DNA from: Gyrodactylus bullatarudis
Lineage: Eukaryota; Platyhelminthes; Monogenea; Gyrodactylidea; Gyrodactylidae
Length of the DNA: 64,000 nucleotides
Direction: 5' to 3'
Assembly: GCA_012064415.1 (NCBI GenBank)
Contig: SSNU01000024.1
Location: 122,396 to 186,395, forward strand
Part shown: piece by piece, positions 1 through 21,057 of the stretch
Layout of the letters: each line of letters opens with the position of its first letter
Position numbering within the stretch: the stretch's first letter is position 1
The notes under the pieces: model-generated
What the model saw: the letters and a program-made list of their open reading frames with translations, nothing else
The model's database searches: none
What the model was told of the DNA's origin: nothing
Made by a program: the position numbers and the translations under genes

Positions 1-96
1 TAAATCTGAGAATAAATGATAAACATAGGAGACATTTGGAGGTAAACATGTGCAAAGAAAGAGGAGAGAACAGCATTTTTTCATGTAAATACTCAC

Positions 97-2957
97 CAAA
101 AGCTCAGAGGACTTCCTGAAACTGAGTTCATCTGGCTTGGTAGAATTAAAGTCGTATAGCGCTGTAGCTTCCATTTTATATCGGCAATGTAATGGGTGAT
201 TTGATTACATGCGGAAGAGGAGAAAAATAACTATTCAATTTATGGATGCAAATGAGATGTATTATTATTTATTGAAATTGATTTGTTTAAACAAAATTTA
301 TTCTAAATATTTGAGATTCCTGCGTGTTTAAGTGATGACTTGGCATTATTTGAAAAATGAATACCAAGTATTCAAATTATTTGAATATTTCCCCTCAAAT
401 TATGAGTCTAAATTATGTTGAGTCGATATTTTCAAGAGTTTTCTGATTCATGAATCATTTTCTAAAGCATAAAATTGACTTGGAGAATTTTTATCATTAG
501 TTTTACATGTTTACTTCCGAGTAAAAACATAAAAATAAGTAATTTAAAATAAAATAGCCCACAAATAAATAATTATTATTTAAAATTTTTTTTCGACTCT
601 GAAATGAAAAAGTTTCTTATTAAAGCGAAATTTTTTTTTATCTTTGACTTTTTGCTCAAATCTCTACTCAAATCTCACTCTTTCTCCTTATGATTAAATA
701 GAGGGAAATTAAATGACTCTCTTTCAATACCACCCCCGCTAGACGTACTTTGAACTGGACCTTAAGAAAAATGGAAATGTATTATCAAGCATCGAGAGCT
801 CTACTGGGAGATTACAAACTTTTTTGATTTTTTTGCCTTCTTCTTTTTTGCTGCTTTCTTTTTCCTCTGACTAAATTAAGGATCAAGATTAAACACCAGA
901 CTGATGAGAGAGGAAAACTCACCGAACAGTAACATTTACTCTTTAATTTATTGGAATGTTAACGTAACTTGAGTCTTACCTTGCCCTCTGCTGTCTATAG
1001 AAGAAAGATTTCACTCGATTTTGGTCAAGATTTCAGTCTACTCACAGGCTCCTGTAACCAAAATTAATTCTCCATGAGACCAAGAGTCATTTTCTTCAGA
1101 GTTAATTCGATAAGCTACTGTATGATAAATATCTCACTTGAGTACATGTTCGGGAATCCTGAAACAAGACAAAAAACCAATCAATCTTAAATATGACTAA
1201 GCTGCTAAAGCAATAAGCATTTGGATCAGTGAATAGAAGACTCACACTGGCTTTGTCGGTCTTGGCAATATCAAAGGAATCTCAAGTAACATCAGATTCT
1301 GATGGGAGTTAGCCTAGTCATAGTTAAAAAAGAGTACTCACACCACCTTGGTTGGTCTAATTTTGTTTATAAAATGGATTGACTTGAACCCGTTTGTATC
1401 CATCTTGGAGACATTTTATTAAAAATCAACTTACACTGGTTCCCCGCCCCTGAAGATTAGAGAAAACTTGATCAATGAAATTCAATTTTCAATTACTATT
1501 ACTATTGGAAGAAGGCAAACTACTCAATAGTACTTACGCATCATCCCTAATCAGAATGAATGTCTAAATTACATTTTCAAATCTTACTCACTCCAGTTGA
1601 ATAGCACTGTCCAATGGATATAATTATTGGCCAATCAGAATGAAGCGAGTAAATATGATCAATAATTTCATTGAATATTTGTAAAATTTACACTGTCCTG
1701 AATTTCTGATTGGTTCATCTTGGGTTATAATTTATAACCTTTAAATAATAAATATTTAGTTTACTTTGACTGCAATCCAAACTCACGGTAGTGCTGGGGC
1801 TGTCTTTTCTTCATATTCAATTCTTTAAAAATCGAGTATTATCCAGAAATCATGTTACAGTCGTTTTTATCATTTTCGATGTAAACTTGCATTAATTTTT
1901 GTCTGATTTTATAAAAGATTTAATACATGAGATAATTCTCACTGGTCCATATATATAGAACGTACTCTTCAAGTTGAATTAGCCAACTATGAAACAAAGG
2001 GGTAATTTGTAAAGTTAGTATTCATCAGGCAGGCTTAGATTGATCAAAACAGAGTGGGCTCAACTGACTTACTCGACAAGATTGGTCTCTTTACTGCACG
2101 GAGGAAAGATTTTAGTTGAAAAGAAAGTAGTTTTTTATTTTATCACATGAAACCTACGCTGTCAATGCATCTAGTCTATTTTGATTAGGAAACAAAGTTG
2201 ATATCATTACTCTTTGAATTTATTCCTGTCAACAAGGTTATATCATACTTCATTCGAATGAGTTCTTTCTTACATCATTTGAATCTCGAAACTGAACAAG
2301 ACAATAAAGTACACATGTGGAGTATTTTACGTACTTTTTCTGCTGATCTCTTTCGGCCAGTAATAAGAAAGGGTCCAAACTTACTGCATCACTTTAAGTA
2401 TGCCGCTAACATTTTGAGTCAAGCTGAATCAAAGGGATGGCCTCACTTCAGGGTTTCAATTCTAATTTTCAAAAGGATAACATCCATAGGTCGTGTTTCT
2501 TACCTGGCATCACGTTCCTTCCTGTCCGGGGAAGAGAAGGAAATGAAGATAGGCTATTTTGAAATCGGAAACTTGCACGTTGGCTGCCTTTCTCCTAATT
2601 GAAGAAAAGAGAACTGATCAGAATCTTTCTCACTTCAACACCCCGCCAACATGAAGAAATAATCCAGGCCTGCATGAGATCTCTTTTCGATTCTGATTGT
2701 TCATTTTAGGCCTTTCTTAAATTCTTATTGGCTTAGTGAATACTCAATGATGATTGGTTGTTATTTTGGAGTAACAATTTCTGATGTCTAAGTTACTCTG
2801 CAAGCGATTGACTGGAAGAATGAGAAAGTTTTATGAAAATATGATTCTAACGATTTCAGTGTTGGGTAAACTAACGCTCTATCAACCTTGCTCCTACAAA
2901 ATAGAATAAGGGAAGAAGAAAAAGAAGGGTCCAACTCACTTGGACTTGAATTCCCGG
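97..2957 (-). CDS. Micro-exon block 6 (3' part of the gene, runs towards the left window edge)
   Basis: Exons in order: 2940-2957, 2876-2890, 2797-2811, 2634-2669, 2504-2521, 2447-2461, 2385-2405, 2331-2342 (doubtful), 2158-2175, 2073-2093, 1943-1966, 1787-1822, 1692-1697, 1592-1606, 1538-1546, 1435-1449, 1342-1356, 1246-1260, 1138-1158, 1046-1051, 980-994, 923-940, 679-720 and 97-135. All are multiples of three and open in phase 2. Exons 1342-1356 (PTKV) and 1246-1260 (PTKP) are near copies, both ending in a split Val codon. The two 36-nt exons read PGLFLHVGGVL and IEYEEKTAPAL. No stop codon was reached, so the 3' end probably lies beyond position 1. The last two exons depend on acceptor choice. 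Confidence 0.7.
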
Positions 2958-5900
2958 CTAATTCAGGCACTCTGCTAAACATCATCTTTCACTTGCCTAG
3001 TTACGTATCTTTGTATTTGTAAGGGGCAGGTGCAAACTATAGACTACTCACTTATTGAGCACTTTACTATATATTTTATGATAGGTTATCATATCAATTC
3101 ATCCTGTTTGATGTCTCTTACAGGTGTCTCTCTCTCAGACTTTATGATGAATTTGAATTACTCAAATGCTCTTTTACTCTTCCAGGATTTTCTTTTGTCT
3201 GGATGGATTAAAAATTTATAGGGTAAGTTAACGAACGCCATCTTTTCCTTCTTAATACTGACCCAGCCAAAAACAGGGGATTACAGAAATGGAAAAATTG
3301 TTTAATTACGCATCGGCTACTTTGCTATATTCAGAAATGCCTCGTCAGGGATCATGTTTCAAAAGACATACTTGATATCCTCTTGGAGGTTTTCACTAGG
3401 CGAGTTATGGAAAAGATGTACAACTTACATTTCCTCTTCTACTTTTCTGCATTTGAAAGTGAATTTGATTGGCTGTCTATTTTGAGTTCGGACTTACTCC
3501 ATTTCCTCATATAATCTAGAGAGGAAATCGATTAGTCTACTCTGCAAAAGTAGTCAAGGTTTACTAACAATTCGAGTTCCCTTTCAACCCTAAGGAACGG
3601 AGGTGAGAAGAGGTCAAGATTCAAGCGTTACTTTTCAATTCGTGCATTGCTGTTCGGAATTAAATTCACATGGGGCATAGTGAGAAATACGTTAGAATCT
3701 TCGGTTTTCGTCTGATTTTGAAGAAAAACTTTGAGATAAAATTCAAATTACTTTTTACGCTTTTTCCTGCAAAAAACCAATGATTTGTGACAATATCAAT
3801 CTTATCGATAGCTCACTTTAAGGGTTGCAGCATCTGGAACTCTCTGGAAGTAGTAAGTTGGAAATTACAAATCTATTTTGAATAAGCTGCCCTGATAAGC
3901 TTACGCAAAGTTGATTGTAGAAGACCTAAATGTAAGAAAAAAGGGGCAAGGCAATATAGTAGTTGATAATACTCTTCATCACAAAAGGAATTTGTCCTGG
4001 AACATCAGGGACCTGACAAGGCAAACTTACAATTGAGGAATTCGAAAAAAAGTTCTATCGGATTAGAGCTCAATATTGAAACTTTACACTGTCGCTATTT
4101 CTGGATAGCTGTAGGATTGTTTCGAGGAGATTTTGGTCCTTTTTTAATTGGTTTTCTTACATTTTACCATGGGTAAACTCACTGAAAAAAGGAAAAGAAT
4201 TTAGAATGCTGATGATGGTTATCCCTAGGGTAGTCTAGAAGGCTATTTTTGATGTGTTGCTAGAATTTTTACGAGAATTATGAAATGAACATCATGGATA
4301 TTTCCTCTTGAAAATAATACTTGTCTGAGAGCTTATTTTCTACCCGCTCTAGTCAAGAATACTCAAGCATACAGTAAGTGGATTATGTTGAAATATAAAT
4401 TCTTAATCGGTTTTGTAAATTATATAGAATCATAAAGTTAAAAACAAATGTAACAGCTTACAATTCACTTTAGATGGAAAGAGGTACAATTCGACAGAGA
4501 AGTAGTTGTTTTCTTTGGCTAGCTTACTCATCCCTTAAGAAGGCAAAGGGTTAAAGATGCCCTACTCAAAAATTGAACTCACATCAGTCTAGAGGAGAAG
4601 AGGGAGGGGAGAGAGAGAAATACAATGTGCTCAGTTTCCATGGCCAATTAACTCACAGTCTTGATTAACCGACAAGAATAATGATTTTACTTGTCTAATA
4701 AAATTTCATTCAGATCTTAAATATTGTCACAAATTTTCGAAGCAGATTCATTAATTTCAGTTATTTTGGCACATCTTCAGTTTAAGAAAAGCTTCAGAAA
4801 GAGATTTAAAAGATTTATGGGAATATTAAAATCTTAGCGATACTATCAAGTTTCTAACCCAAAAGAGGTACCTCAAAAGTCTTAACAGCTGATTTCCATC
4901 TTTTTAATGCAATGCAAGCCTTTATATCAAAAATAAGACCTAAGATTCGATAAACACAATATTTCTCCAAATCTAAAGCTAGTTAAATATGAAGATGAGA
5001 ATGATGAAAAATTTCAAATGTTCAGTATCTTTTTAATTCGATCATATGAACACACACTGTCAAAATTATATATAGAGTACACACAGTGTATAATATACAG
5101 GAGAAAAGTATTATGATTTGTTGGAATCCTACTCATGTTGCCCACTTTTACCAGTTGAAGAATTACATTCCTTCTTGTCTAATTCTAATGCTGAAAAATC
5201 ATCTTTAGATCACACTCTCACTATCAAAAATCAACCAACTTAACTAAAACTGATCAAGGAACCCCATTTTTTTGCAAATCGATTCCCATTGGTAGATTGA
5301 GTTCAGGTTCTATAGTTAGTCAAAAAGAGTTTGAAAGGACACTTACACTTCTCCATCGTACTTTTCGCCGTCAAGCCTAGAAGATTAGTATAAATGAATC
5401 GTTTGGCTTTATTTGAAAGAGGAACTCACAGTTCAACTTCAGTTTGATTGAAGATCCTAACATTTTGGAGTAATGAAGTCCTCATGACCTTTGACTTACG
5501 CGATTTGTTGTAAAGGTCTCAAAAAGAAGAAAGAGGGGTGATCAAGAGAGATCAAAGTCTTCCTTACAACTCTTTAAGAAATGTTCTTCAACTCGGTCAG
5601 ATGTTCAGATGTCTAGAATGGACACTTACATTTTTTTGCTAATATATGATGAATAGAATAAACCCTTAGAGGTTGAATAAATCTCTGACAAACTTGTTGA
5701 CGAGAATCATGAAGCTTCGAAGACTATTTTGAAAATTACACTATCTAGAAGATGTTTCTCACGAATGAGCATGTCCAGGAGGTCTAACCGATCGATCAAA
5801 GGGTCAACCATGGGTCACTCACATGTGGAAGATATCCCTGTATTAAAGATAAAATTAGCAGTGGGGGAACTTGTGGGTTTAACTTGCCTCTTTCCAGTTC

Positions 5901-8900
5901 TAGTTAATTCAAAGTGAGGCCTAATTCAAGCAGTGACATACGGCAGTTTCTCGACAGAGTAGGCTCTGTGAAAAAGTCAACTCTTGATAAGGGCGATGGT
6001 TACAGAAAGTTACACGTTAAGAAGGGTACTGAAAAGATGGAAAAAAGATGAAAATTTGCCCAATGAGAAAGAATTGTACTCACCATAGGGCAGCCAGACT
6101 AGCAAGGAATGGTTCGTAAGCGACCAAGTCTTCCAAAACTACTCACGTTCCATCACTTATCCTAGGCGTATGATTTGAGTGATTTGATCAAAACTAACCA
6201 TTCATCATACCTTTGGGGGTTGTAACGGATTCAGTGTGTTTGTGAAGGAAAATTGATCAAATATGATTGGTTATGAATCATTGGACCAATCAGATTTGAG
6301 GTATTTGGAATAATAGGATAGACTTACTTATTCCCATAATTACTATAAAATTGAGTTATGAAATTCCATTTTCTATCAACTAACCATCCATCCGAAGATC
6401 TAAGTCGTACAAGGTGAGAGCATGGCACAAGATTAACCTCACGATATAAAATCAAGCACTCCACTATCATACCACATGGGGTTAACAATGAGATGGAAAG
6501 TTAACTAACTCGGCATCTATGCTACATCGTTGTTATTTGTTTAGATTATAATCAACTTGAAGTTCATCTTACACATAACAAACATCCCTTTTATAGTAGG
6601 TGTTGAATAGCATAGAGCCATAGTCATACTTTTCATTGACATGTCTGAAAGGAAATTCCCAAATTTATAACAACAAAGTATTCTATTCTTCTTAACACAT
6701 CAAATGTATCGAGTTTATTGACTTACACGCAGACTATCCAGCTAGATTAATAAGGATTAGGCGCATGTATTGGATCATTTACTCAATCCCGTCAAAACTG
6801 TATTGGGGATGAACCATGATCAGTTCACAAGAGGGGTTTACTCGAAGAAGAATCTACATTAGTTTTTATCAGATTTCATCTAGATAGCACCATACACTGA
6901 GATGTTGTAGCTAGAAATGCAATTTGATAAAAAATATAAAACGTACACTTCACAGTCACTATTTCATTAAATGAATTAGCCATTTTGTACCTGTGTTTAT
7001 TCCTTCAATGGCAAAAATCTAACAGAACTCACGTGTGAAGAAGTATGCTTAGATTAGTTAGATGATATCATTGTAAAGTCTTCCCTCACAGTTCATATGT
7101 GAGCAGGCTGTAGTGTTTCAAGACATTGAGCATACTCTCTTTGCTCACTTGAGACAGTAGAAAGGGAATCTAAGTGAGGAATTAATCGAGGAATTACATC
7201 AATCACTCACTTTTTACCCTCTCTGAGACGAATATTTGGATATTGATCAACTCATCCTTACCTTTTAATTGAGCTATGGAATTAATCATAGAGGGTGGGG
7301 GAATGAACCATGCTTACTAAAGTCTGCCTTCCCTTCATGAGAGGAGTTTAGTTTTCTGCATTCTGCATTTTAATACTCACGGAAATTCGTGAACCCTGAT
7401 CAGGTTGTTGGTTGTATCTCAGAGATATTCCTTACTCAAACTCATTTCCACTATTTTAATAGACTGATTAAATCCCGTGTCCCCTTTTTAGTTGATCTAC
7501 TCACGAATAGTTTATTTCAACTCTGAATTACAATTTCCTTAACCACCTTGGTGAAATGACAAACTTCTCATTGGAGTAGCTTGAGAAGAAAAGAGAAAGA
7601 GTAAACTTTGGTTTATAGCACTGAGATTCGAAGGTAGCTTACATCAGGTCGATCCTAAGGACAAAAATTCAAAAGGAGTCCACGCAGAACTCACATGTAA
7701 TTCTCAGGGAAGGCTTTTTCCTCCACTAAAAGTCTATAGTTTCAATTTAATAGTTAATCTAATTAATGGAGGGGGGTTGCTCAAACTTTTGAATTTCCGG
7801 ATCCCTTTAAGAAATGGGTGAGAAATGAATGTTTAACTCTTACCCAACAGCCAGTTCTCTGTAAATTGTTGTAAGTCAAGGGAATGGTCACTTACAAGAA
7901 TCTTTTGGCTCTAGAATTAGAGAATAATCGGATAGACATTGGACATACTCTGAAGGTAACTCGGTCAGACTGACAGGGAATCATGAAAAACCCAGAAAAA
8001 AGATTCCTCTAAACATACTCCCGGCCACTAAAGTTTCATTATAAATTCCTTAGTGTTTAATTCCTATTTGAGACTCACTCGGTCCTTAGGGTTTCACTTG
8101 AAGCATCAATTGTTATTATTCTAGTGGTTCAGAGTAGACATTTTACTTTGTGTAAACAACCTCTCTACAAGCGGGATTAGATTGATGATTGGACAAGTCT
8201 CACGGCAATACAAGATCTCTTCTACAATCTTGATAACTTTATAATCTTCGGAAATAGCTTGCATGTCGTTGACAAAATCCACATAGCAATAACTGGAAAA
8301 TAATTGAAAGAAATTCAAATACAGTGTCATGTCTTACGCCTCTAGTTGAATATCGTCAATGCTGGAATGGAAAAATTCGTTGATTAGTGTTGTTTATCGT
8401 TAGCTACATAGAAGAAATTGAAGGCTCACTGCTTAACTATGAACCTGTGTGTGTTGGGATGATTGTCATGATTTCCAAGGCTCAGTTGTACTACTCACAA
8501 ATTCAGATATCTAAATTAACAGCCAATCCTGAGTTGAGGAGAGGCGAGAACTCACCCTTGGTAGACACAGCTTGATAGGATTTTTCTAGTCAAATGAATA
8601 GTTTTCAACAATACATGTCTAGACGGCTAGAGGTTGTCAGTTCTGAGTCCAAAAGGCAACTTACAAGGACTCTCCCTCTCTAATGTTTGCATTATGTTTG
8701 TAACAGGTTCTTTTTTTCTCTTACGATTTGCGGAAGAATCTGTAATCAATGTTTGCTTTTAGGTTAGATAAGCCAATCAATTATAATTATTATCATGTTT
8801 CAGATTTCAAAATCAAGATTATTATTGGATGAGTAGGAAACTCACACATTCGATTTGTTTAAAAAGAATCTGAGAGTTAAAACAAATGACAGGCATCACA

Positions 8901-9821
8901 ACTCACGGAAGGTTAGCGGCCAGGCCATCTCTGAAAAGCGATATCCAAAATGATATTTCACATTGTACAATTGAGAGAGAATGTAACATGTAATCCTTAT
9001 TATGACAGGGAAAGTCAATCCTCAGGGGGGGGGGAATAAAAAAAAAACAACTCACGTTAGGTTAGCTGCCTGATTATCCCTGAAAGAAGACATCCATTTA
9101 TCAGAGCTATAGGTCTCGAATATTTTGGAAACCAGATTCGACACCAAAGGCACACTGATTTTTATTTTTCAGCATCATTAATAGACAAATAAAGGGAAAA
9201 TGCTTTTTCACTGCTTGAAAATTTGATTATCCGAGATCAGTTGAATTTGACTGTTCTTTTAAAAATTGAATAGTTTTTTTGTCTATTCTGGTCCCACCTA
9301 CACCTTGAAAAATGGAATTTTCTCTAAAGTGTGCCTTTTTATTAATCCTGAATATCTTTAGAAAATTAACAGACTTCAATGAAAAAATACACATTTTTTG
9401 TGAGTATTATTAATCCCCAAATTCATCGATACAGTAGCTTAGTTGTAAGGAATAAAATGGCTAGATATTTAAGCCAATTTACTGGTGATTTTAAATTTAC
9501 TTTGAGAAGTGGTGATAGATTGGATAAAACTCACGGAAGTTTGGCTTCCACGTTATCTCTTTCAAAGGGCATATTCAATTAGTGGTTTTAAGAAATATAT
9601 AAGAAGTGATATTTTAGTCATCGATGACATTGAACGAGACAGATAAATGGGCTGATTTTAGCCACAAGAAATTCCCCTCGAAATCCATTGGATATACTGC
9701 AAGTAGAACATGATTTAGTCCAGTGATGTGTGTTTGTGTTAGAAGATAAAAACTGCAGACTCAAATTTCCCTTTGAAAAGTGAGAAAAACAACTCACTGA
9801 AGGCATTCTTCTAGATTATCC
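97..9821 (-). CDS. Giant micro-exon gene (about 90 exons of 6-42 nt), 5' and 3' ends not found
   Basis: Read on the minus strand, this stretch repeats one pattern: acceptor AG, a tiny exon, then a GTAAG/GTGAGT donor (seen on the plus strand as ACTCAC or ACTTAC, exon, CT). I place about 92 such exons, totalling about 1.6 kb (about 545 codons). Nearly all lengths are multiples of three, about a third are exactly 15 nt, and introns are mostly 36-110 nt. Each exon reads as 1 nt, whole codons, then 2 nt, so every intron is phase 2; the other frames hit stops in many exons, this one in none. No exon is longer than 42 nt. The protein matches nothing I recognise. By architecture it resembles schistosome MEGs and aphid bicycle genes, whose internal exons are mostly phase 2; homology is not shown. 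Where several CTs were possible I chose the one that kept length and frame, so single boundaries can be wrong. Confidence 0.85.
3052..4588 (-). CDS. Micro-exon block 5, including three successive 6-nt exons
   Basis: Exons in order: 4583-4588, 4528-4533, 4462-4467, 4161-4181, 4088-4108, 4031-4054, 3905-3925, 3817-3843, 3752-3766, 3632-3649, 3569-3589, 3497-3514, 3429-3446, 3372-3395, 3310-3324, a doubtful 3233-3247, a doubtful 3162-3176, 3122-3139 and 3052-3066. The first three are 6 nt each with GTGAGT or GTAAGC donors and pyrimidine-rich acceptors. The product becomes charged here: ENLQEDI, KVEEE, LYEEM, VERELE and LRERH suggest a Glu/Lys/Arg-rich, possibly helical region. Exon 3162-3176 would leave an intron of only 22 nt and is probably wrong. 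A 3-nt exon at 4657-4659 is also possible. Confidence 0.72.
5167..6463 (-). CDS. Micro-exon block 4 (15 exons)
   Basis: Exons in order: 6443-6463, 6385-6399, 6328-6342, 6147-6161, 6084-6098, 6014-6028, 5942-5965, 5823-5837, 5763-5783, 5630-5638, 5568-5585, 5500-5517, 5430-5456, 5347-5376 and a doubtful 5167-5178. All are multiples of three and open in phase 2. The largest, 5347-5376 (30 nt), reads LDGEKYDGE; 5430-5456 reads IFNQTEVE. For 5568-5585 a 24-nt alternative gave an immediate stop while the 18-nt form stays open, so the frame test separates the options. Exon 6385-6399 uses a GTTAGT donor. Confidence 0.75.
6510..7522 (-). CDS. Micro-exon block 3 (17 exons, very regular spacing)
   Basis: Exons in order: 7505-7522, 7436-7450, 7381-7395, 7318-7332, 7262-7273, 7211-7222, 7149-7169, 7090-7107, 7033-7047, 6947-6958, 6896-6910, 6842-6853, 6783-6797, 6727-6741, 6630-6644, 6573-6587 and 6510-6521. 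Nearly all are 12, 15 or 18 nt with introns of about 36-85 nt, so the unit repeats about every 57-60 nt. Phase-2 reading gives short peptides rich in Phe, Tyr and Cys, such as FPFYCL, DCE, YNIS, FFF, WIVC and DVCY. The last exon uses a less usual GTTAGT donor. This Cys/Tyr-rich middle part is the segment most worth comparing with the Cys-Tyr-Cys motifs of bicycle proteins. Confidence 0.78.
7643..8679 (-). CDS. Micro-exon block 2 (14 exons)
   Basis: Exons in transcription order: 8665-8679, 8556-8570, 8499-8510, 8430-8444, 8338-8361, 8204-8218, 8079-8084, 8019-8027, 7949-7969, 7896-7910, 7844-7858, 7695-7733 and 7643-7654. Lengths run from 6 to 39 nt, all multiples of three and open in phase 2. 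Exon 8338-8361 reads IDDIQLE, 7949-7969 reads LTELPS and 7695-7733 reads LLVEEKAFPENY. The 39-nt exon was preferred over an 8-nt alternative because only it keeps length and frame. Introns of 37, 38, 49 and 51 nt lie between 7844 and 8084. The 6-nt exon 8079-8084 has a GTGAGT donor. Confidence 0.78.
8846..9821 (-). CDS. Micro-exon block 1: five 24-nt exons, four of them duplicates
   Basis: In transcription order the exons are 9798-9821, 9535-9558, 9056-9079, 8907-8930 and 8846-8869, all exactly 24 nt. In phase 2 the first four read DNLEECL, DNVEAKL, DNQAANL and DGLAANL, each followed by a split codon. They are plainly copies of one exon, each with a strong GTGAGTT or GTGAGT donor and an AG acceptor. 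The fifth (FFLNKSN) has the same size but a different sequence. This block is the strongest proof of the micro-exon reading, because length, frame and both splice sites agree without any choice. Introns here are longer (about 37-455 nt) than in the rest of the gene. Confidence 0.88.
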
Positions 9822-9896
9822 CTAAAGAAGCGATTGAAGTAGATGAATGAGGGAATGTACCAAACAGGCGGTCAGAGCATACTGAACCAAACTTAC

Positions 9897-10035
9897 AAGG
9901 TTTCCTATAGGAAAGAGGTGAGATAAAGGCTGTCTCATTGTTTCAATGGGTGTCCACTAACCATGAATTTGATGAGTGATTGATCAACTGATTCACACCA
10001 ATCTGAGCACTCAAAAAAGAGAAATTGATTTGCAT
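9897..10035 (-). other. Tentative 5' start of the micro-exon gene
   Basis: An ATG at 10033-10035 opens a 39-nt segment (9997-10035) coding for 13 residues that begin MQINFSFL and ending at a GTGAAT donor in phase 0. It could join an 8-nt exon (9897-9904; acceptor AG, donor GTAAGT), which would shift the phase from 0 to 2 and lead straight into the first 24-nt exon. The phases fit, but the donor is weak and the N-terminus is short for a signal peptide. An alternative first exon is the hydrophobic MKSVLTTLNIIVIRL segment near 12614-12660, which has a GTAAGC donor but ends in phase 1. Neither is proven. Confidence 0.25.
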
Positions 10036-13000
10036 TAATTAATATTTTGAGCTTAGATATTATTATTCCGTATTTTAAATTTAATTTTAATGATTATACT
10101 AATTAATTAAATCATTTCCCCCACCCCTATGATATCTGACAATTTGTACGTTTTTCAACTATAGATCACATGATTGCCTCAAATAGGCATACAGACTGCA
10201 GTGACCGGACATCATAAACAAAAGAACCATGCATGAAAGCAGAGGGGGGTGTGTGAATAAAAATGAGAAATTCTTTGAACAACTCTGGGCTTTCTTTTCA
10301 CTATTTTACTAAAGAGTTCTTTGATGTTTATTATATTCTTGTTTTCTCTTAGGGTTAATTCCAAAAATCACCCCAAAGGAAAATTTCAACGCTTCCTCAA
10401 ATCAATTGTTCTTATTTCAAAATTCCCCTCTCTAACATATTTATTGTCAGCTAAATTTTTTTAACGCTTAAACTTCTATTCGAAGATTAAAAGTGAACTT
10501 TCTCCTTATATAGAGCCTTAGATGGAAAAAAACCTCTGGAAAGGATTAATTTTATGTTTCTCAAAATAGTGAAATAAGAAGAGTTCTTGAATCCAATGTT
10601 CTTGAAGTTTTGAAAAAATTAATGAATATCCCTGTAAACATCTGAGTACCGTGGCTAATAAGTTGGAAGTTTCCCTTGAAAATTATTATCCAAAGTAACC
10701 TCTTTGGAAGCAGCTAACTCGGAGATTATCATTCTCTGTGACGCCGAAAATCTGAAGGAGTGAGAACTTGAAGGTTACGAATTAAATAAAAAACTTGGAT
10801 GACCATACACAAGCCGTAAAAAATCAAGAGTTGAAATAAAGTTTAATGAAATTTAGTTTTAAATAATATTGTTTTTAAGAATTTTTAAAATTTTTGAGGT
10901 GATTATTGGAATTAACTCTTTCTTTGCTAATTTGAATAATTTATTAAAATTTCAGCAAGCTACTTGCAAGTAAAAACGTGAAACTATTTATTTATAAATA
11001 CTTAGTTGTCTCAGAATGAAGATTCTATTGTGGTGGACAATTAAAATGTTAATTCCTCTCAGTTGGCTTACTTTTTAATTGAGTTTACCCATGAATGAGA
11101 AGGAATAGACTTTTTCATGCATGTACACTGGATTTCTCTCTCTCTGCATTTCTCTTTCGTGCAGTTTCAAGAATAGGATAAGACAACTTGCAAGGGAAAA
11201 TAAGATTTCCCTAGTTGATAAAAAGAATTGTAGAAAATTTACATTCCAACTAGCATGCCTTCCTGGCTACATTTAGAAAAATAAAGAAATTATTCAATCA
11301 TACGTAATGCATAGAATTGGCCATAGATTATGTCGTTTAGATAAGAATCAAAGGTACTCCGTACACAATTGACCTCTGTTGCTCTCTGTTTTGCCCCTTT
11401 CAGCTGGCCAAGAACGATAAGCTCTACTTGATGCATTGCAGATTTTCTGGGAAAGGTTTGATCAATACTCTACTCATCTTATCATAGTAATGTAAAAAGA
11501 CCTACAAATTACTTTTACCATTTCAATTGGGGATTTTAGTCATTCGTATCTTATCATGATGCATCGCAATTTCTAGTGTACAGTAAAAGTTTGCTAAAAT
11601 CATCAAAGGTCTAAATGAGATACAAGGTACAAGATGGTGAATGTAGACATAGAGAGATGGATTCTCTATTTTATCTTCGCCTATAAAATATGATGATGAT
11701 GATTGCCTTGAGGTGTGAATTGAATTGGCCTTCCTTTTTTCCTCTTATCAATAAGGACTCCCTCTTGTAGTGACATTCAATTTCCCCTATTTACACTCAA
11801 TTCATAGTAGTGAGATATCCATTTATCATTTTGTGTTTTTTTCTGCATTCGAGGTCCACTCTCCATTCAAGAGAGATTTTTCATGTAATTTTCATTCTCT
11901 TTTCCTTACATATTGGGTAGTCTTTTCGAAGGATAATGTGTAGTACGATTGAGAACAATTTGTCAACATATGATATAGATATACTTTAGAAAGGGAAAGG
12001 AAACCAAAGTGACATCTGGACGAAAGAAATACATTCCACAAATAGAAATAACAACTACAATGAGATATTTATTAGTATCATTATTATAATTATTACGTGT
12101 CGGAATTGTCCATTGTCACTTTAGAACAAGTCCACAAATTAGTACAATGTAATGTACAACAAGTAGGTGTTGTCATTACTCTGAAATACCATCACTAGCT
12201 GTAGTAAAGGAGGGTTTATTTTGCCTTCACTCGCTTCAAGATCAGTTTAAACTTTATAAAAACCTCACATCTGGTTTTCTCAAATGTCTCATCTAAAGTT
12301 ATTCTCTTTTCATTCTTTTTTCAAAAAAATGAATGATCCTGAAAAATAACGTTTGATCCCTCTCAGACCTTGAAATCAACAAAAGTTTTCAACTCTAAGT
12401 TTAAAAACATTGAAAAATCGCGCCATCTCGAATTTTAAAATGTCTCTGAAACTTTCCAAAAGAACTTTTTTTCTAAAATCAGTAAAAGTGTACATTTTGA
12501 ATCAGTTACCAAAAAATCTTTCAAATATTTCGATACCTTGATGAAAAAATGAGATTCTTGTAATATAAATAATGAATTCCCAAATTCATCGAGAATAGCT
12601 GTAATTGGCTTACATAGCCGAATGACTATGATGTTTAGGGTTGTTAATACACTCTTCATAAAGCATTTGGAAATCTTCAATTTCAAATAACAAGATAACT
12701 CATCATTATCATTTGCCCTGTGTCTATAGTACTCATAAATAACTTATGTTGTTAATGACAGGTCTATCTATCGTCGTCATCCTTCGTCCTTGGGGGATTG
12801 AATAATATGAAAATTATGAAATATAAAAATGAGTATGAATATGAGCACAGGGGGCATACATATATATGTATAATATACATAGATTGTATATATATATATG
12901 CAGCGGGGAGTTAAGATTTCTCGAATACACTTTATTTATTCGCGTACTATCCATCTATTAATGATAATAATGTTAATTTACTTGGGATTATGTGGATGCA

Positions 13001-15480
13001 AAAGTCTCTTGAGGAGATGGTGAGAACACAGAAAGTGTAAGCTAGCAAAAACTAAGAGGGATGAAAGAAGTCGTCTCTTAAACTGAATTATTCATGATCA
13101 AAATGCCAAGACTTGAGTGAATTTCATTCGAAATTGTGTGTGTGTATCTCTCTAATTCTCTTCTATATTTAGTATTTAGTAACCAAGGTGGACTCTACAA
13201 TTCCAAAGTGTAGAAGAAATCAAGAGTCCAATGCCATGATCAGGGCTAGGACAAGCCATTCAAAATTGTGTACACGAACATTTACTTCCTGGGCCTACTG
13301 TTGAATAAAAGACTGTTTTACTCATACAGTAAACATTCCTATTTCGTAGCACAATCAAAGATTTAGTCTCAGATGCTCTATGGTGCTCTGAGCTTAGAAG
13401 TTGAAAAAGGAACATGTGAAAAACCTCTGCCCACTACTGAAAGATTGTGTAATGTTTGTATTTGAAACAACATTTATAACAACATGAATTGTCAATGAAT
13501 CTTAGTCTCATGGGTCGTAATTTTGTTTTAAAGAAACTGAAAATAACACGGGAGGAAATAAAAAGATAACTTTTAGGGTATATAGATAAAATTTTCAGGG
13601 TTTGTCCAGAATTTTCCACAGATTTGCAAAAATCCCAAATTAGATATCTCTTCAGATTACACATTTACACAATTAAACTAAGTAGCTGATTAAAAAGAAC
13701 GGAAAATTCTGCGTCTGATAAGCTATTTTGATGCGAAAAATTCTTTTTTTAAAAACCGGGAGTTAAACTTGGGGTAGCTGTAAAAAAACTCTTAAAATTT
13801 GTCATGAATTTCTCCTTTTATAGCTCGCTAGAGCTCACATTTTCCATAAATCTTGAAGTGTTAAGACTCAAAATTATGCAAAATTGTGTGCTCTTTCTAA
13901 TGGTCATTGTTTTATTTCGATATCTTGTAAAATTCAAATAGATATTCACGGTTTAAGTCAATGACTTCATTCAGAAGAATAAAATCAACCAATCAGAATC
14001 AAGCATTTCTTTCTTCACTAATTATAATCAAGTGACCACTTAGGATTACTTATCAAGTTACAATAGTTTATTTAGAAGTTATGACAATATAAAAATTACT
14101 CATTTTTCGAATAATATAAAAATATACAGAACGTTCTTTTGAAAAACCACTTACTGAGATCGAAGAGAAAAAAAGAAAGAAACCATACCCGTAGAATTCG
14201 AAACCATAGAAAATTAATAGTTGGTAAAAGTAAATTCGTAATTGGAATATATGAGCAACCCATTTTTCCAAAGCCTCTTCCAGACGTTTCTTCGGTACTC
14301 AGATACTCAAGTGCCTTCTTCTTCAGTGGATGAGACACATGTAACCTGAACTCTCTCTTCAGTTTTTTTTTGAAATCGAAAATTTTTATTTACAGAATTA
14401 TAAAGATTAATAATTGTACAAATAAGAGAACAGAGAAAGAGTGCTTAATGTGCCCGGTGTGGGAGGGTCCGAATGAGCGGTGAGAGAGATACCACAACGC
14501 CACATCTAGAAACCCTTAGAGAGCTGAAAATGCAATAAGTAGAGTAAAGACGAGATTCATCTATAAAAATCTCAACTTTTTAAAAGTTTTGTGTAAAATA
14601 TTTGTACCAGACCCTAAGCAAGGAAATCGTATAAAGTGACTATAACGTTATTCATTTGTCTTACCCTGGTGTCTATTGTAGGAAAAGAGAGAGGAACAAA
14701 ATCTTGAAGAACTTCTTTTGGTTCAAGATTATAATTCGAATGAATTTCTTTCAAAAAATATTAGAATGGAATGAAATAAGCTTTAAAAAAAACGAGTCAG
14801 ATTAATTATTCATCACTATCCAAGAGAGAGACACACAGGTATATTTTAGCAATCCTGAGATGACAAGCGTAAATTGCTCGAATAAAGTAAATATGTGAGC
14901 ACATCAGAGAGGACAACCAGTTGTAAGGAAACAAGAAGGAGTAATAATAAGTAGGTATTATCAAATTTCAACCATATCCATAACGAAACATTGGGAAATT
15001 GTTGGAAAATTGGGGTTGGGTGATGGATAGATTCAATTACATCATCAGAGGGAGTAGGATTTCTTGTGGGGAAAGTCTGAATGTGGTAGGAATCGTTTCA
15101 TAATACTTTCATAGAATACTTTAACATACTTTGATGAAACAACATACACACTGTGTATTAAACAGCCATCCGAACGTATGAATGAAGGGAAGAAATTGTA
15201 ACCAGTTTTCACTCTGAAATATGAACAGTTGGTGAAATGAGAATGAGGGAATTTTCAGATGAAAAGGGGAAAAATTGTAACATGTTATTCGACAAAGAAT
15301 GACATTTACTCCTTGAGCAACATAGTGTACACTGGGGTAACAATGTAGATGAGAGAATTCATCATGAGAAATATATGACTAGTTCATTAAATGGGTTATC
15401 TATCTGAAGAAAGTAGATATGAATTCTTTTTATGAAAAGAAGATTAATTACAAAAATGGTACTCTATGTGTTGAGCTCAA
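10036..15480. other. AT-rich stretch without a convincing gene
   Basis: No ORF here resembles a known family, and no regular micro-exon pattern continues. Isolated exon-like signals exist (for example 10713-10727) but lack partners. There are short TA-rich runs near 12860-12900. It may hold the promoter and 5' untranslated exons of the micro-exon gene. Confidence 0.5.
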
Positions 15481-15483
15481 AAA

Positions 15484-15549
15484 GGTGGCACTCGAACCCA
15501 CAATCTTCTACTCAGGAGGCAGACGCCTTAACCATTAGGCCACGTAAGC
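15484..15549 (-). pseudogene. Decayed tRNA-Arg(CCU) copy
   Basis: On the minus strand the D arm, the anticodon arm (loop CTCCTGA, anticodon CCT) and the T loop TTCGAGT match the intact tRNA-Arg at 18335-18407. One T-stem pair is broken (GTGGG against GCCAC) and the 3' acceptor strand is missing: the copy runs straight into the flank TTTTTGAGCTC, which also flanks the intact gene. Loss of about nine bases from a duplicated locus explains this. Confidence 0.75.
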
Positions 15550-18334
15550 GATATGTTTTATTTGACTTAAAATATTAATTTTGGAATATTATTCAGGGAT
15601 AATTACAAAAGTAGAAACTTCTAGACGAAATCTTCAAAAATTAGAAGATAGATCATCAATAAGTAGAAGGTCTATTCAGTGTATTTAGTAGAAGATTACT
15701 AAAGCTATTCTGGAAATAGTCTTCGCATATGCCGAAACCAAGAGACTATTCATTTTTCAACAGAATTGAAGGCAAAAACGTAAAAATAAGGAATTAAATT
15801 AAAGAAATTATGAGATCTGAAGATCCATTGTTAAAGATTTTAGAGACCTTCAAACTTGTGAGAGATAAGAAATCAATAGAAGTAATTATGATAAACTATA
15901 CACTTCTTAATAAAACTTTGTCGAACGCACTTTTAATTTAGGACAAGTATTATTTTTTAATCTTACAAATAATTCTTCAAAATTAATTTTTTTTAATTCT
16001 TCAGAACCGATTATGGATTATTTCACCAAACTGAACAGTTATCATATCAGTGTGAAGAAGTAAGCGTGAATAGTGTAAAGTTTGTATTGAATGAAAATTT
16101 CCAATCTTTTACACAAATTTTGGTAAATACACTGGATAGACCTCTTACTTATTAATGATCTATATCTTCTAATTTTCGATTTAAGATTTCGTCTAGAACC
16201 TTCTACTTTTTGTAAATATCCCTAATAAACTTTGATAATTATGAATGAATTTCCGGTCTGTGATCTCTGATCATTAGGGCCTCAAAAAGTACTATTTGGT
16301 CTATTTTTACTCTTGACAAAAAGGACTGGCTGAGTGTTAATAATCTGAAGGAAAAATCTGCTTATCTAATCTTATTTAAAAGATAGCTGGTACTATTTCT
16401 GTACTAAATTGTTTGTTTCAAATTCAATCTCAGAATATAGCATTCCTCAACTAGTTAGCAATCACATTTTTTGATGAATTGATGAAAATTGTTGTGTATT
16501 TCGCACTCCTCGCCCCGGAATCAAATGTTCATTGAGTTTTGGAACCGGCTGTATATTCCTGATATCGAGCTTTCATCATCTAAGAAAATATCATCTATAG
16601 ATCGTAGCTTTTTATTGGATAATAATATTCCTCCATGAATTTCAAATTTCATCTAAAAAGATATACAATGTATGTATTTTGTAAAATATGCACAAGAACA
16701 GTTGAAGGGTCATTTTCTATTATGTAAAAAACTTTGGACAAAAATCAGAAATTTTATTGACACAAGATTGACTAAAAATTCTACAACAATTTACGGTAGA
16801 GGACTATTTTTTAACTCAAAATCCTTTTCTTGAAAGTACTTTTTTTCATCTTTTTTCGTACTATTTCTGAGGCCTTACTAATCACACGTTAAGACGTAAT
16901 ATCGCGCCCTAAGTAACCGTATAAATTATTTCTTATCCACTACTTTCAATATAAATATATTTTACATTTGCTAATGCTACCTTTTTCTGACAAAAAAAAC
17001 TGCCATCTAGTCTAAATGTTTAAATTGACTTTTCACACAAGCTGGCTTATTCATATTCAGGTGAATAGAGTCCAAGACTCTCTCTTCCCCCCGGAGGTGT
17101 TGAAAATTTTAAAAATTTTATTATCTACGAATTACAAAAGATGGCGAATAACTCAAGAAATAAAACAACTTGCTCATACCACTCCCACCCCATACTCCCA
17201 TCTATTCTTTATCTACTCCAAACTAACTACTTTCTTTTCTCCACTCACTCCGTTCTACATCTGCTCACTGGTGTTGAGTAATTGAGACAGCAAGTTGTTC
17301 ACTTCCTTGCTGGCTTATCAACTCTATACAGTATATATTGCCTCTTTCATCTTCCAAAATACAAAAAGGAACAGCCACTAGTTAACGTTTGGCAGTGAAG
17401 TTAATTAAAATATTTCTCTCCTACGATTAAATTGCTTTTCAAGCCAAGAACTATCCTTTTGGGAATAGGTTGTTTTTCTTGTATTTTCTTTTACATATTA
17501 CTACATATCCAAAGATGTTCTCGTTTAGTTTCCTATTTACATTCCTCATTTTCTCGTGGAGAAACAAAAGTTGAGTTTATTTTCGATTCTAAATTACCCC
17601 CACCGGATCGTGATCTAAAATCAATCATTTTTACTCTACTCTTTAGACCAACTGCAAAGTAATGGTTCCTGGCTCTGCTTGGACAAGATCGAAACAGGTG
17701 CCAATCATGGTAGACTCTGACGCTTGAGAATGATTCTCGGAGACTTGCCAAATGTTGAAATAGAGTAGAAGAAAGCATTTTTTGTAATTTTTTTTCAAGG
17801 TTTCCCCAATGCTCCGAGGGTAAATTTCTAAAGACAATGGCTGTCTTCCTCCTCTTTCTAGAGCACCTCTTTCATTTCTGAATACAGTGGGGTAATGTTC
17901 GTTTCTATTGTTTGTTTTAAATTTTTCTGAAAATAAAATAAATTTACCCACATACAGTCAGTCTCCAAGGGATGTATGATGATGATGATGTAGCTGAATA
18001 ATTATTATTATTTCTATAGAGATTAGTGGTTTTCTTTTGTTGTTTTTAATACATGTAAGGAGGGATGGCTTAAAAGTAAAAGTAAAAAAGAACATAACCT
18101 CGATTATGTTTTATACGAGGATTAATTAATTTTCTATTCCATATCTCACGGCTGATCTAAAGGCTGAATGGTAACATGATAAAATATATTTTCGTGGGAT
18201 GATAAAAGAACAGGATATTTATTAATCAAATTTGAGATCTAATTTTGGAATTTAACTCATCTTAGCATAAGATAAAAAACTATTTACGACACGATTGAAT
18301 CTGATACTGAAGGACCATACTGAGCTCAAAAAGT
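15550..18334. other. Non-coding or unrecognised DNA
   Basis: Several ORFs of 60-100 codons exist (the longest are 17016-17285 on plus and 17643-17951 on minus), but none shows a recognisable domain, and overlapping ORFs on both strands suggest chance. A short GAT-triplet run lies near 17975-17990. Confidence 0.45.
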
Positions 18335-18407
18335 AACCCACGGTGGGACTCGAACCCACAATCTTCTGCTTAGGAGGCAGACGCCTTAACCATTAGGCCA
18401 CGCAGGC
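18335..18407 (-). tRNA. tRNA-Arg(CCU)
   Basis: The 73-nt minus-strand sequence folds as a normal cloverleaf: a 7-bp acceptor stem with several G-U pairs, a D arm GCC/GGC, an anticodon stem TCTGC/GCAGA with loop CTCCTAA (anticodon CCT, reading AGG), a 5-nt variable loop, and a T arm GTGGG/CCCAC with loop TTCGAGT. A internal-promoter-like A box (TGGCCTAATGG) and B box (GGTTCGAGTCC) are present. The wobble-rich acceptor stem leaves a small chance that it is a decayed copy too. Confidence 0.88.
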
Positions 18408-18951
18408 GAGAGAATGTAAATTAATGCAATTACAACCAAATAAATCCACATTTGTTCGTCTGTTTTTGTTTTTGTAACAATTTCTCAATCCTAGAACTAA
18501 GACTAAAGGTCAGATGAATTACATGTATGAATAAATAATTTTTATTTATCTACAACTCTTTGAATTGACTCCAATCACAACTATCTACATGTGCTCCACC
18601 AAACACCTTGCCCAGATCGCTAAACTGAATCTATCAGAATCACTAAAGTATCAGATAATATAAGACCAGTCCTGGTGTGGTATCCAATTTCACATGAGAA
18701 TGTTCTCTGTGGAAATGTCTAAGCCTGTTACTCTCCTGGGAGATGCCAAGGTATCTTCTATTCCCACATTGTTTGTTTAGCTTGAATCTCTCTTTTTTTT
18801 ACCCAAGATCTTGTTTTTATTCTTGCAATTTTGAAATTAAAAAAACAAATAATAATTCCCTCTAACAAAAGGAACATCATTCTCAAACCAACCAGTTATT
18901 ATTATAAGAGGATACTTATTTTGGTTGATATAATCCAAATAGTATATAAAA

Positions 18952-19000
18952 CAAGCTGGTGTAAGAGATTTTGATGAGATCTAGCGAAATAAAAGCTTTA
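18952..19000 (+). ncRNA. Degenerate hammerhead-ribozyme-like motif (family B)
   Basis: The segment carries TTGATGAG, six bases and CGAAAT followed by AAAAGCTTTATCACT. It matches the layout of the better hammerhead copies at 56508-56560 and 56843-56895, including the upstream GGTGTAAGAG and the downstream tail. The conserved C3 of the core is T here, so it is probably inactive. It marks an old Penelope-type terminal repeat. Confidence 0.5.
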
Positions 19001-21057
19001 TCACTAATTACTCGTCTGGTCGTTAAAACAAGTAGACCATCCGAATTTCCCTGGAAGCAAGTAATAATAACGAAAACAATATAAACGAAGAAGGAAAATA
19101 TTGACTTTTTTGTGTCACCAAAAAGATCTAATTATTCTAATCTTGAATTTGACTGAACAACTCCTCTGAATAATGAGACCCTTGATGTTTAATATAAAGT
19201 TGAACCTGATGTCTGTATGAGAGGAACATTTGAGCCAAACTGAACTAACTGATTTCTCCCCATGCTAACTCTTCATGTCTCAAATTATTATTTTTTCATC
19301 ACACAAATTAGGGAATTTGCAAAATAATTACACTGATTCCGAATTTGAATTCCTTTTTGAAAGCCGTCTTTCCCTTTTAAAGATAATAGAGGTTCTTGTG
19401 TTAGCATCAGGGAAAAGCCATTTCTATGAATAATTCGTTCTTCAGTTATCGATAATTTGCATTTTTTCAGTCTTTGAGAAATGTACACCCTACTTCCCCT
19501 GTCTCTCTCTCTCTCTTTCTGTCTTATCTCCTTGGAAATTAAGGGGGATAAAATAAGAAACAGGCATGATTAAAAGAAGATGATGAGTGAATTTCCTGAG
19601 AATGTTTCTCTTACACATATTTCACTGTCCAATGTCTTGTATTATTCGTAGAGGAGACCACCAACTCCATTACTTATTTCCCTTTTATACTCCCTAATAT
19701 ACTCTTCCTATGTATATCTGTATTTATTATTTCTACATAGTATTTGGGGAAATGATGATTCTCCCTTGAAAAAGGATATCTGGACTACATTAATAGAAAT
19801 TCCAATAGAAAATACAACAACTACAATGTATTATTATTACTCTCTTTACTTTATAGAGAACATTCTTTCCAGATGAACTTAATTAGTTAGTAGTATTGTG
19901 CCTACTGTATTAAGATACATGCATGCTATTACACACACAAACAAACAAACATATTACTGATGTTGAATGTAGAGAGAAAGAGATGAAGAGCAGGACAAAA
20001 TTTTTCCCTGTCTATTTAGTTTATTTTGTTTTTTTTTAATTTCTTTCCCTCTTCCACTAGTGGTGGTAGGCATTTCATTATTTTATTCCATCCATTGCTG
20101 ATGGGATTAATTTTATTTTTATACAATGAATTACCTTATCCCTCATGTCCTTCATGTTGTGTGGTGGAAATAAACTGATTTTCTCCCTCAGAGAAGCCAT
20201 CATTATACATCTCATGATCATATTGCTTATTATCGTGGTGAATAGACCAATAGTAAACCGACAAGGATTTCTATTGGTTCATCCTGAGAATCCATACTGA
20301 TTTTTCAATGAATGATTGTACAAATCCTAAAATTCAAATTCACAACTATAATTTTTCATTCATATTTAAATGGGGTAGATTTGACACAGTATTATCATTA
20401 ACAGCAAATCTTGTTATAAAAAATAAGTGTTTCTAGTTTAACGCTTCTAACAGAATATGAAATCACAAGAGTCTTTTGATGTAAAACAAATTATAACTTT
20501 CACATCATAAAGACATAAAAATCAATGTTCAAATTGCTTTTGCAGGCTAGTGGGGGTATCCATGGCATTTCTCAATAAAAAATTTTTTCAATAAAATCTT
20601 TTCCCATGATAATAAATGACACCCTTTGATTTAATTCAAATAAAAAATTTCTTGATAGAGATTCTAGCTATCAGAGCATTTTAAGGGTGAATCTTTCATA
20701 GGCCTACAAATTAAGAAATTTTTTAAAATCTGTAGGTTGGAATATGAACATCTTGTATCTGATAAAAAGGCGTTATATAATGAATCTGAGAAATTCTAAA
20801 GAAAATCAATCTGGTTTCTGTTATTAGTGAGGATCAAGATAGAGAAGAGAGTTTGAGCAATCAATTTTTGATCTTTTATGTTCCATAATAATAGTTTTGA
20901 TGGAATAAAGATGATCAAAATTACAAGACAAGTCATACTTTTCATGAAGAATGTTATAAGTGGAGAGTAGGAAATTATTTTGACAAGAAATTTTTTAATT
21001 GATATATAAAATAATAAATTTTAAAATAAATATAAAGACTCTGTACATAATATCCTT
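19001..21057. other. Non-coding AT-rich DNA
   Basis: No supported gene. It holds a CT-rich run near 19501-19518 and a short (ACAA)n run near 19935-19950. Confidence 0.5.

Follow-up and report, generated by a model that had tools for sequence, protein, structure and literature searches.

A chain of some 80-90 symmetric, one-phase micro-exons in Gyrodactylus bullatarudis: a probable extreme member of the flatworm micro-exon gene class

In a 64,000-nucleotide stretch of the Gyrodactylus bullatarudis genome (the window: positions 122396-186395 of its contig, C252, in an assembly of 77.3 Mb in 471 contigs), the minus strand between positions 9821 and 801 probably carries a functional protein-coding gene composed of about 80-90 symmetric micro-exons of a single phase; in structure it lies at the extreme of the flatworm class of micro-exon genes (MEGs). 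Its coding pieces are mostly 6 to 30 nt long and its introns mostly 40-100 nt. The evidence is as follows: there are far more paired splice sites than chance would give, exon lengths favour multiples of three, a single phase stays open and shows coding periodicity, the terminal exon carries a stop codon, and one exon occurs in four copies. As far as sequence can tell, the observation of the chain may be regarded as settled short of transcript evidence. An earlier note on this DNA had described about 90 symmetric micro-exons in less than 10 kb, and a chain of about that number is indeed present.

The exon list of the earlier note had been drawn up with the reading frame as a guide to splice-site choice and was possibly circular; we therefore decoded the region frame-blind. 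The decoder assembles short exons (≤60 nt) from splice sites alone, leaving the reading frame unused, and relies on generic splice matrices whose consensus comes from general knowledge and not from training on this genome. Already at the level of single motifs the strands differ, with 44 GTRAGT donors on the minus and 5 on the plus strand in about the first 10 kb of the window. For window positions 1-10500, the minus strand yielded 96 exons at a score of 459.3, the plus strand 31 exons at 103.5, and 20 dinucleotide shuffles a mean of 131 and a maximum of 180. Under a stricter penalty the observed score was 279.9, compared with a mean of 56 and a maximum of 122 in 200 shuffles. Divided by three, the lengths of the 96 minus-strand exons leave remainders of 0, 1 and 2 in 63, 19 and 14 cases (binomial p 1e-10), those of the 31 plus-strand exons in 9, 12 and 10; the symmetric fraction in 100 shuffles averaged 0.34 and reached at most 0.54. 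When the decode is limited to 801-9821, 61 of the 86 exons have lengths that are multiples of three, and the longest uninterrupted run of such exons is 12. In the list of the earlier note, uniform phase 2 and multiples of three were partly built in by the frame test.

Phase denotes here the number of split-codon bases given by the preceding exon, such that a phase 2 exon begins with codon position 3. In the 63 symmetric frame-blind exons, stops occupy 37 of 380 codons in phase 0, 19 of 317 in phase 1 and a single one of 317 in phase 2, in agreement with the earlier statement that only one frame survives. Base composition differs by codon position (p 2.7e-16, or 2.3e-14 if only interior bases are counted; plus-strand control, p 0.41), with GC fractions of 0.56, 0.27 and 0.40 at the three positions. 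A decoder for chains of one phase gave minus-strand scores of 332.7 for phase 2, 213.4 for phase 1 and 185.3 for phase 0, where the phase 1 and phase 0 chains can reuse many splice sites of the phase 2 chain; the plus strand scored at most 21.0, and the maximum of 100 shuffles was 53.

Short exons are easily fitted, and with some sites in the first list chosen by frame, the chain might have been a chance succession of splice-like motifs or a product of that choice. Frame-blind decoding speaks against this, and neither the shuffles nor the opposite strand nor 16 of 17 other stretches of the genome give such a chain; the 17th carries another micro-exon gene (see below). The null test proposed in the earlier note, on shuffled and opposite-strand sequence, likewise returned no comparable symmetric open chains. 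We regard this explanation as ruled out at the level of sequence, with a negligible residual probability.

The exon list of the gene is uncertain in detail. Two models that work in phase 2 placed 84 (generic) and 95 (locally trained) exons over 11 kb, 71 of them in common. The frame-blind decode also picked 59 of the 95 trained-model exons, and 54 exons, with a mean length of 17.4 nt, are common to all three decodes (the three-way core; one of them, at 10195 and only 3 nt long, falls beyond the gene bounds as drawn). Within 9821-801 the generic and trained models comprise 83 and 89 exons with 1717 and 1774 coding bases. The commonest exon length is 15 nt (20 of the 96 frame-blind exons). Of the range of 6-42 nt given in the earlier note, the tiny size of most exons was confirmed, but modelled exons reach 72 nt. 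The trained chain has 89 of 90 exons divisible by three with a longest run of 49, a divisibility imposed by the model; its introns measure 55 nt in the median (quartiles 44 and 103) and range from 33 nt (decoder floor 32) to 438 nt.

Several observations weigh against the gene as proposed. Lengths that are not multiples of three occur in 33 of the 96 frame-blind exons; we mostly take these as false picks, without proof. About one third of the modelled exons are without frame-blind support. Searches for homologues of the predicted protein in a protein collection, Pfam and PDB gave nothing significant, and a 5' exon and a signal peptide were looked for, none of the candidates being convincing.

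The gene, those of its parts that are discussed below and the adjoining exon are, in window positions:

801..9821, minus strand: micro-exon gene of about 80-90 predicted symmetric exons in one phase, each starting with codon position 3
9798..9821, minus strand: 24-nt micro-exon, copy 1, DNLEECL
9535..9558, minus strand: 24-nt micro-exon, copy 2, DNVEAKL
9056..9079, minus strand: 24-nt micro-exon, copy 3, DNQAANL
8907..8930, minus strand: 24-nt micro-exon, copy 4, DGLAANL
7522-7505, 7450-7436, 7395-7381, 7332-7318 and 7273-7262, minus strand: consecutive micro-exons, in the three-way core except 7450-7436
7222-7211, 7169-7149, 7107-7090 and 7047-7033, minus strand: consecutive micro-exons, all in the three-way core
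5007..5228, strand unassigned: dispersed repeat resembling a miniature inverted-repeat transposable element (MITE-like), in pieces, inside an enlarged intron; many genomic copies in both orientations
4218..4318, strand unassigned: another dispersed repeat; it lies in the chain gap that follows exon 4467-4462
3589-3569, 3515-3498, 3446-3429 and 3395-3372, minus strand: micro-exons coding for a stretch that by eye is heptad-like and coiled-coil-like, VERELELLYEEMEKVEEEIENLQEDI
801..870, minus strand: terminal coding exon of 70 nt; an acceptor, then QRKKKAAKKKKAKKSKKFVISQ (lysine-rich C-terminus) and the stop codon TAG at 803-801
97..174, minus strand: exon 1 of a neighbouring SH3-SH2 gene, to which the donor belongs; not part of the micro-exon gene

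In the micro-exon run 7522-7033, the introns measure 39-54 nt. The dispersed repeat at 5007-5228, in its enlarged intron, accounts for one gap in the exon chain; pieces of the corresponding genome-search query, 4973-5194, recur at many places. For the second repeat it is the query 5883-5983 that recurs, and the other parts of the gene had no match elsewhere in the genome among the best 40 of 1215 candidates. Two chain gaps containing dispersed repeats, together with weak splice sites at a few exons, are what a decaying micro-exon gene, a pseudogene with its structure still kept, might display. With one stop in 317 codons of the coding phase, coding periodicity and a clean terminal exon, however, this explanation appears very unlikely, and a functional gene is preferred.

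At its 3' end, the gene as read here terminates with exon 870-801. Both phase-2 models shortened this exon and added another at 738-679, which we consider the weaker reading. The earlier note had placed the low end at 97, but the segment 174-97 encodes MEATALYDFNSTKPDELSFRKSSELL, the start of an SH3 domain (Pfam SH3_1, E 5.5e-6), and is exon 1 of the neighbour. The next 6 kb of the contig past this exon hold an SH2 domain and another SH3 piece; because of this order, an SH3 start followed by SH2 and a further SH3 piece, we consider the neighbour GRB2-like. It sits directly downstream of the micro-exon gene.

Towards the 5' end, dense micro-exons cease near 9.8 kb, although the gene possibly extends as far as about 10230. 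Frame-blind decoding of 9851-20000 gave 22 symmetric exons out of 42, above one third, with stops in every phase (15/241, 11/219 and 12/219); we therefore claim no extension upstream of 9821. Candidates for a first exon at 10230, 10035 and 9938 were not convincing. The best signal-peptide candidate, MVLLFMMSGHCS at 10230, has a weak donor and failed a hydrophobicity filter.

The predicted protein has about 590 residues (trained model, 9821-801); the same model over 9821-900 gives 567 residues with 12.7% Leu, 10.4% Glu and 1.6% Cys. A hand-merged model of 512 aa, from which exons judged weak were left out, had no match in the protein collection at E<=10 among the best 8000 candidates scored. 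Lysine-rich and coiled-coil words were suspected of filling the candidate list of this query; the N-terminal 286 aa, searched separately, also had no match at E<=10 (537 candidates). For a whole model of 595 aa, nothing in Pfam exceeded the curated cut-offs, and the best PDB match had E 0.24. Two Pfam matches below the cut-offs, to Apc4 WD40 (E 0.048) and, over the coiled coil, to ABC_tran_CTD (E 0.0053), were set aside. Taken together, the product would seem to be a protein specific to the lineage, coiled-coil-like in its middle and lysine-rich at its tail.

The four 24-nt copies listed above lie near the N-terminus and are identical in pairs at 12-17 of 24 nt. In their flanks, 6-10 of the 10 bases after the donor GT agree, the first four of these being donor consensus, as do 6-11 of 23 bases upstream. 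We take the four related exons as evidence that the gene has grown by micro-exon duplication. The introns, by contrast, are mutually unlike: when 89 of them were compared with one another (plus strand), not one pair was similar at E<1e-3. This argues against a recent burst of a single intron-making element, and introner-like intron gain was rejected on this ground.

These results bear on the question what kind of gene was cut up in this way. It could be an ordinary older gene for an intracellular protein, for example nuclear or cytoskeletal, which was broken by many one-phase intron gains and has no variable or secreted product of the MEG type. The composition of the protein, its coiled-coil-like stretch and lysine-rich C-terminus and the want of a convincing signal peptide would suit such an origin, and so would the codon-position bias, which exceeds that of the two other micro-exon stretches tested (p 1.5e-7 and 7.6e-4). 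Against it, no homologue appeared in the protein collection at E<=10, in Pfam or in PDB; the dissimilar introns offer no sign of a recent intron-carrying element, and exon duplication fits MEG-like growth. We hold an intracellular origin to be a serious possibility, though one that falls short of probable.

Schistosome MEGs and the bicycle genes of aphids are the established systems with which the gene can be compared. According to the working definition, MEGs have exons of <70 nt that are divisible by three, at least 7 exons, half of them micro, and runs of four (PMC7653826); 109 were counted in S. mansoni, 35 in E. multilocularis and 52 in H. microstoma (PMC7653826). Ten MEGs form a family in one region, H. 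microstoma has a tandem family, and gene finders struggle with such genes (PMC7653826, PMC10526429). S. mansoni MEGs comprise 10-20 exons, most of them 15 bp long, have introns of 0.1-5 kb between them and encode signal peptides (PMC10526429). Schistosome MEGs are also characterised by exon skipping as a form of alternative splicing and by expression in gland or tegument. The gene in the window fits the definition as a prediction, with 83 and 89 exons in the phase-2 models and 86 frame-blind, and it does so also on the frame-blind divisibility and run length given above; the original definition works on annotated exons, whereas ours are predicted.

Like schistosome MEGs, the gene has very short exons, mostly multiples of three, with a mode of 15 nt. 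It differs from them in having about 80-90 instead of 10-20 exons and a median intron of 55 nt instead of 0.1-5 kb, in that no convincing signal peptide was found, and in its host, a monogenean; flatworm MEGs described elsewhere include those of Schistosoma, Echinococcus and Hymenolepis.

Aphid bicycle genes contain about 17 exons on average, and nearly every internal exon begins at codon position 2; the megacycle gene, likewise from aphids, spreads 118 exons over about 100 kb, encodes 2092 aa and grew by internal duplication (PMC9168663). Internal exons are nearly all of one phase there as well as here. The likeness does not extend to the phase itself and was rejected as such: for bicycle genes, "exon phase 2" denotes a start at codon position 2 (PMC9168663), and exons of the window gene begin at position 3. 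Aphids are, moreover, unrelated to flatworms. The 639-aa model lacks the tripeptide CYC, as well as C-Y-C with gaps within 8 residues, but some bicycle homologues are also without the motif. By division, megacycle has about 53 nt per exon, whereas the window gene packs about 85 exons of about 20 nt each into 9 kb.

The expectation of the earlier note that there are more exons than in schistosome MEGs (10-20; PMC10526429) or bicycle genes (about 17; PMC9168663) proved correct. Its suggestion of an undescribed system was not supported as to kind: MEGs are established, with a working definition (PMC7653826), and megacycle has even more exons, although over about 100 kb (PMC9168663). Exon number alone has this precedent, while the density seen here is without one in the excerpts of the MEG and bicycle literature compared.

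The same comparison bears on a second possible role, namely that of a fast-evolving protein secreted at the host interface, of MEG or bicycle type, whose variation is made by splicing. The 15-nt mode of the symmetric exons, which schistosome MEGs share (PMC10526429), points in this direction, and so do the failure of the searches to find a relative and the parasitic life of Gyrodactylus. The signal-peptide candidate at 10230 with its weak donor, the low cysteine content, the lysine-rich tail, the missing CYC motif and an exon phase unlike that of bicycle genes point away from it. The earlier note had considered a secreted, effector-like product; since a convincing signal peptide is not found, cysteines are few, and coiled coil and lysine-rich tail are predicted, this is not supported, and we rate a host-interface role as about as likely as the intracellular one and, like it, short of probable.

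In the literature, PMC7923790 describes a MEG of T. bryosalmonae, an endoparasite and not a monogenean, and PMC4398949 names micro-exon gene organization among the proposed gains of parasitic flatworms, citing Tsai 2013 and Hahn 2014. The main text of the G. kobayashii genome paper, which gives 10,427 and 10,943 genes for two haplotypes and a BUSCO value near 60%, contains none of the terms micro-exon, microexon, small exons or short exons. Micro-exon terms are also not used in the main text of the Eudiplozoon paper. MEGs in Gyrodactylus may already have been reported, and we therefore do not claim a first in a monogenean. Under the title "Comparative genomics of flatworms ... ecto- and endoparasitic neodermata", the article by Hahn reportedly presents the genome of Gyrodactylus salaris.

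At about 17-20 nt, an exon does not offer enough length to be recognised as a unit, and a size of about 50 nt is usual for introns that are recognised as units. Because both exons and introns are tiny in this gene, we infer that the spliceosome would recognise introns rather than exons (intron definition). The codon phase is the same at both ends of every exon, so that duplication, loss or skipping keeps the frame. With one phase throughout, exons would behave as modules open to in-frame copying or skipping, and the gene could in this way evolve, and perhaps also express, many length variants of one protein. As for module behaviour, exon copying is supported here by the related 24-nt exons.

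Further micro-exon genes were sought in five neighbouring stretches and in 17 arbitrary 10-kb stretches of the genome, of which this contig supplied three. The sole match among these 22 was 400-410 kb of this contig, about 270 kb from the window gene, with 44 of 56 frame-blind exons symmetric and no stop in 196 phase-2 codons. Its one-phase score was 229.5, and no other stretch exceeded 57.0. At 410-420 kb, 50 of 70 exons are symmetric, and stops are again absent (0/163). Other flanking stretches are enriched but noisier: 380-390 kb has 33 of 52 symmetric exons and 8/167 phase-2 stops, 390-400 kb 33 of 53 and 5/179, and 420-430 kb 38 of 60 and 7/164. Positions 380000-429999 of the minus strand thus appear as a tract of micro-exon genes with the phase of the window gene. 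Two side observations concern this tract. A 39-nt exon at 419536 codes for the hydrophobic LIIVSLIMLVMV. In 390000-399999, both strands give high-scoring chains of splice-like sites (minus 410.8, plus 186.0), and that of the plus strand has no multiple-of-three bias (12/12/14).

At least two genes in this tract are tandem paralogues: A, at about 426-420 kb, and B, at about 419.6-410 kb, have a local alignment score of 104 compared with a maximum of 69 in 200 shuffles and a BLASTP E of about 1e-8 (four-protein database, no composition correction). They share strand, phase, genome and exons of mostly 6-30 nt with the window gene but differ from it in being Cys-rich, with CC motifs and many 9-nt exons. 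Sequence similarity between the window gene and A or B was not found (scores 39 and 31, each within the range of 200 shuffles).

A probable further gene lies on the minus strand of the window at 57398-62163, with symmetric exons of 9-42 nt and introns of up to about 1.7 kb; neither of its ends was found. In the region 57-64 kb, 23 of 29 frame-blind exons are symmetric; phases 1 and 0 are not distinguished by stops (7/196 and 8/219) or chain scores (65.7 and 61.2). Read in phase 1, this gene has an apparent duplicated exon, TPGRSSDRNFNY and TPVRSSDRQH.

On this evidence, micro-exon genes form a class in this genome. Their prevalence rests on one of 17 arbitrary stretches, and therefore no real count is possible. 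Whether gyrodactylid genomes in general hold a large, mostly unannotated class of hyper-micro-exon genes, including tandem families, is in our estimate evenly balanced; by this class we mean genes with dozens to about 90 exons of 6-30 nt in one phase and introns near the minimum length.

Some other features of the DNA were recorded. On the plus strand of the window, 26769-27281 encodes two C2HC zinc fingers (Pfam zf-C2HC, E 2.6e-31), which resemble those of the MYT1 family. Two open reading frames of transposable elements, also on the plus strand, are found at 43301-44272, with an integrase core (Pfam rve, E 1.6e-8), and at 48649-50271, by eye similar to the reverse transcriptase of long interspersed nuclear elements (LINE). 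The mitochondrial COX1 of the assembly has AAA at conserved Asn positions, as in the flatworm code. Among 120 matches listed (8000 candidates scored), its protein has 89% identity with the Gyrodactylus albolacustris cluster; the values are 84% for Macrogyrodactylus karibae, 83% for both Cichlidarus nyanzae and Paragyrodactylus variegatus, and at most 71% for the rest. By COX1, the genome thus belongs to Gyrodactylus or to a gyrodactylid very near it, a monogenean that parasitises fish.

If transcripts confirm it, the gene illustrates the degree of fragmentation at which a coding sequence can yet be spliced in frame, its exons near 17-20 nt and introns near 50 nt going well beyond the described schistosome MEGs. 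It also raises the question if micro-exon duplication needs phase uniformity as such rather than a given phase. Should the class be real, it would constitute a coding layer that is invisible to standard gene prediction and a test bed for splicing by pure intron definition, and the gene catalogues of gyrodactylids, which are important fish parasites, may miss many such genes.

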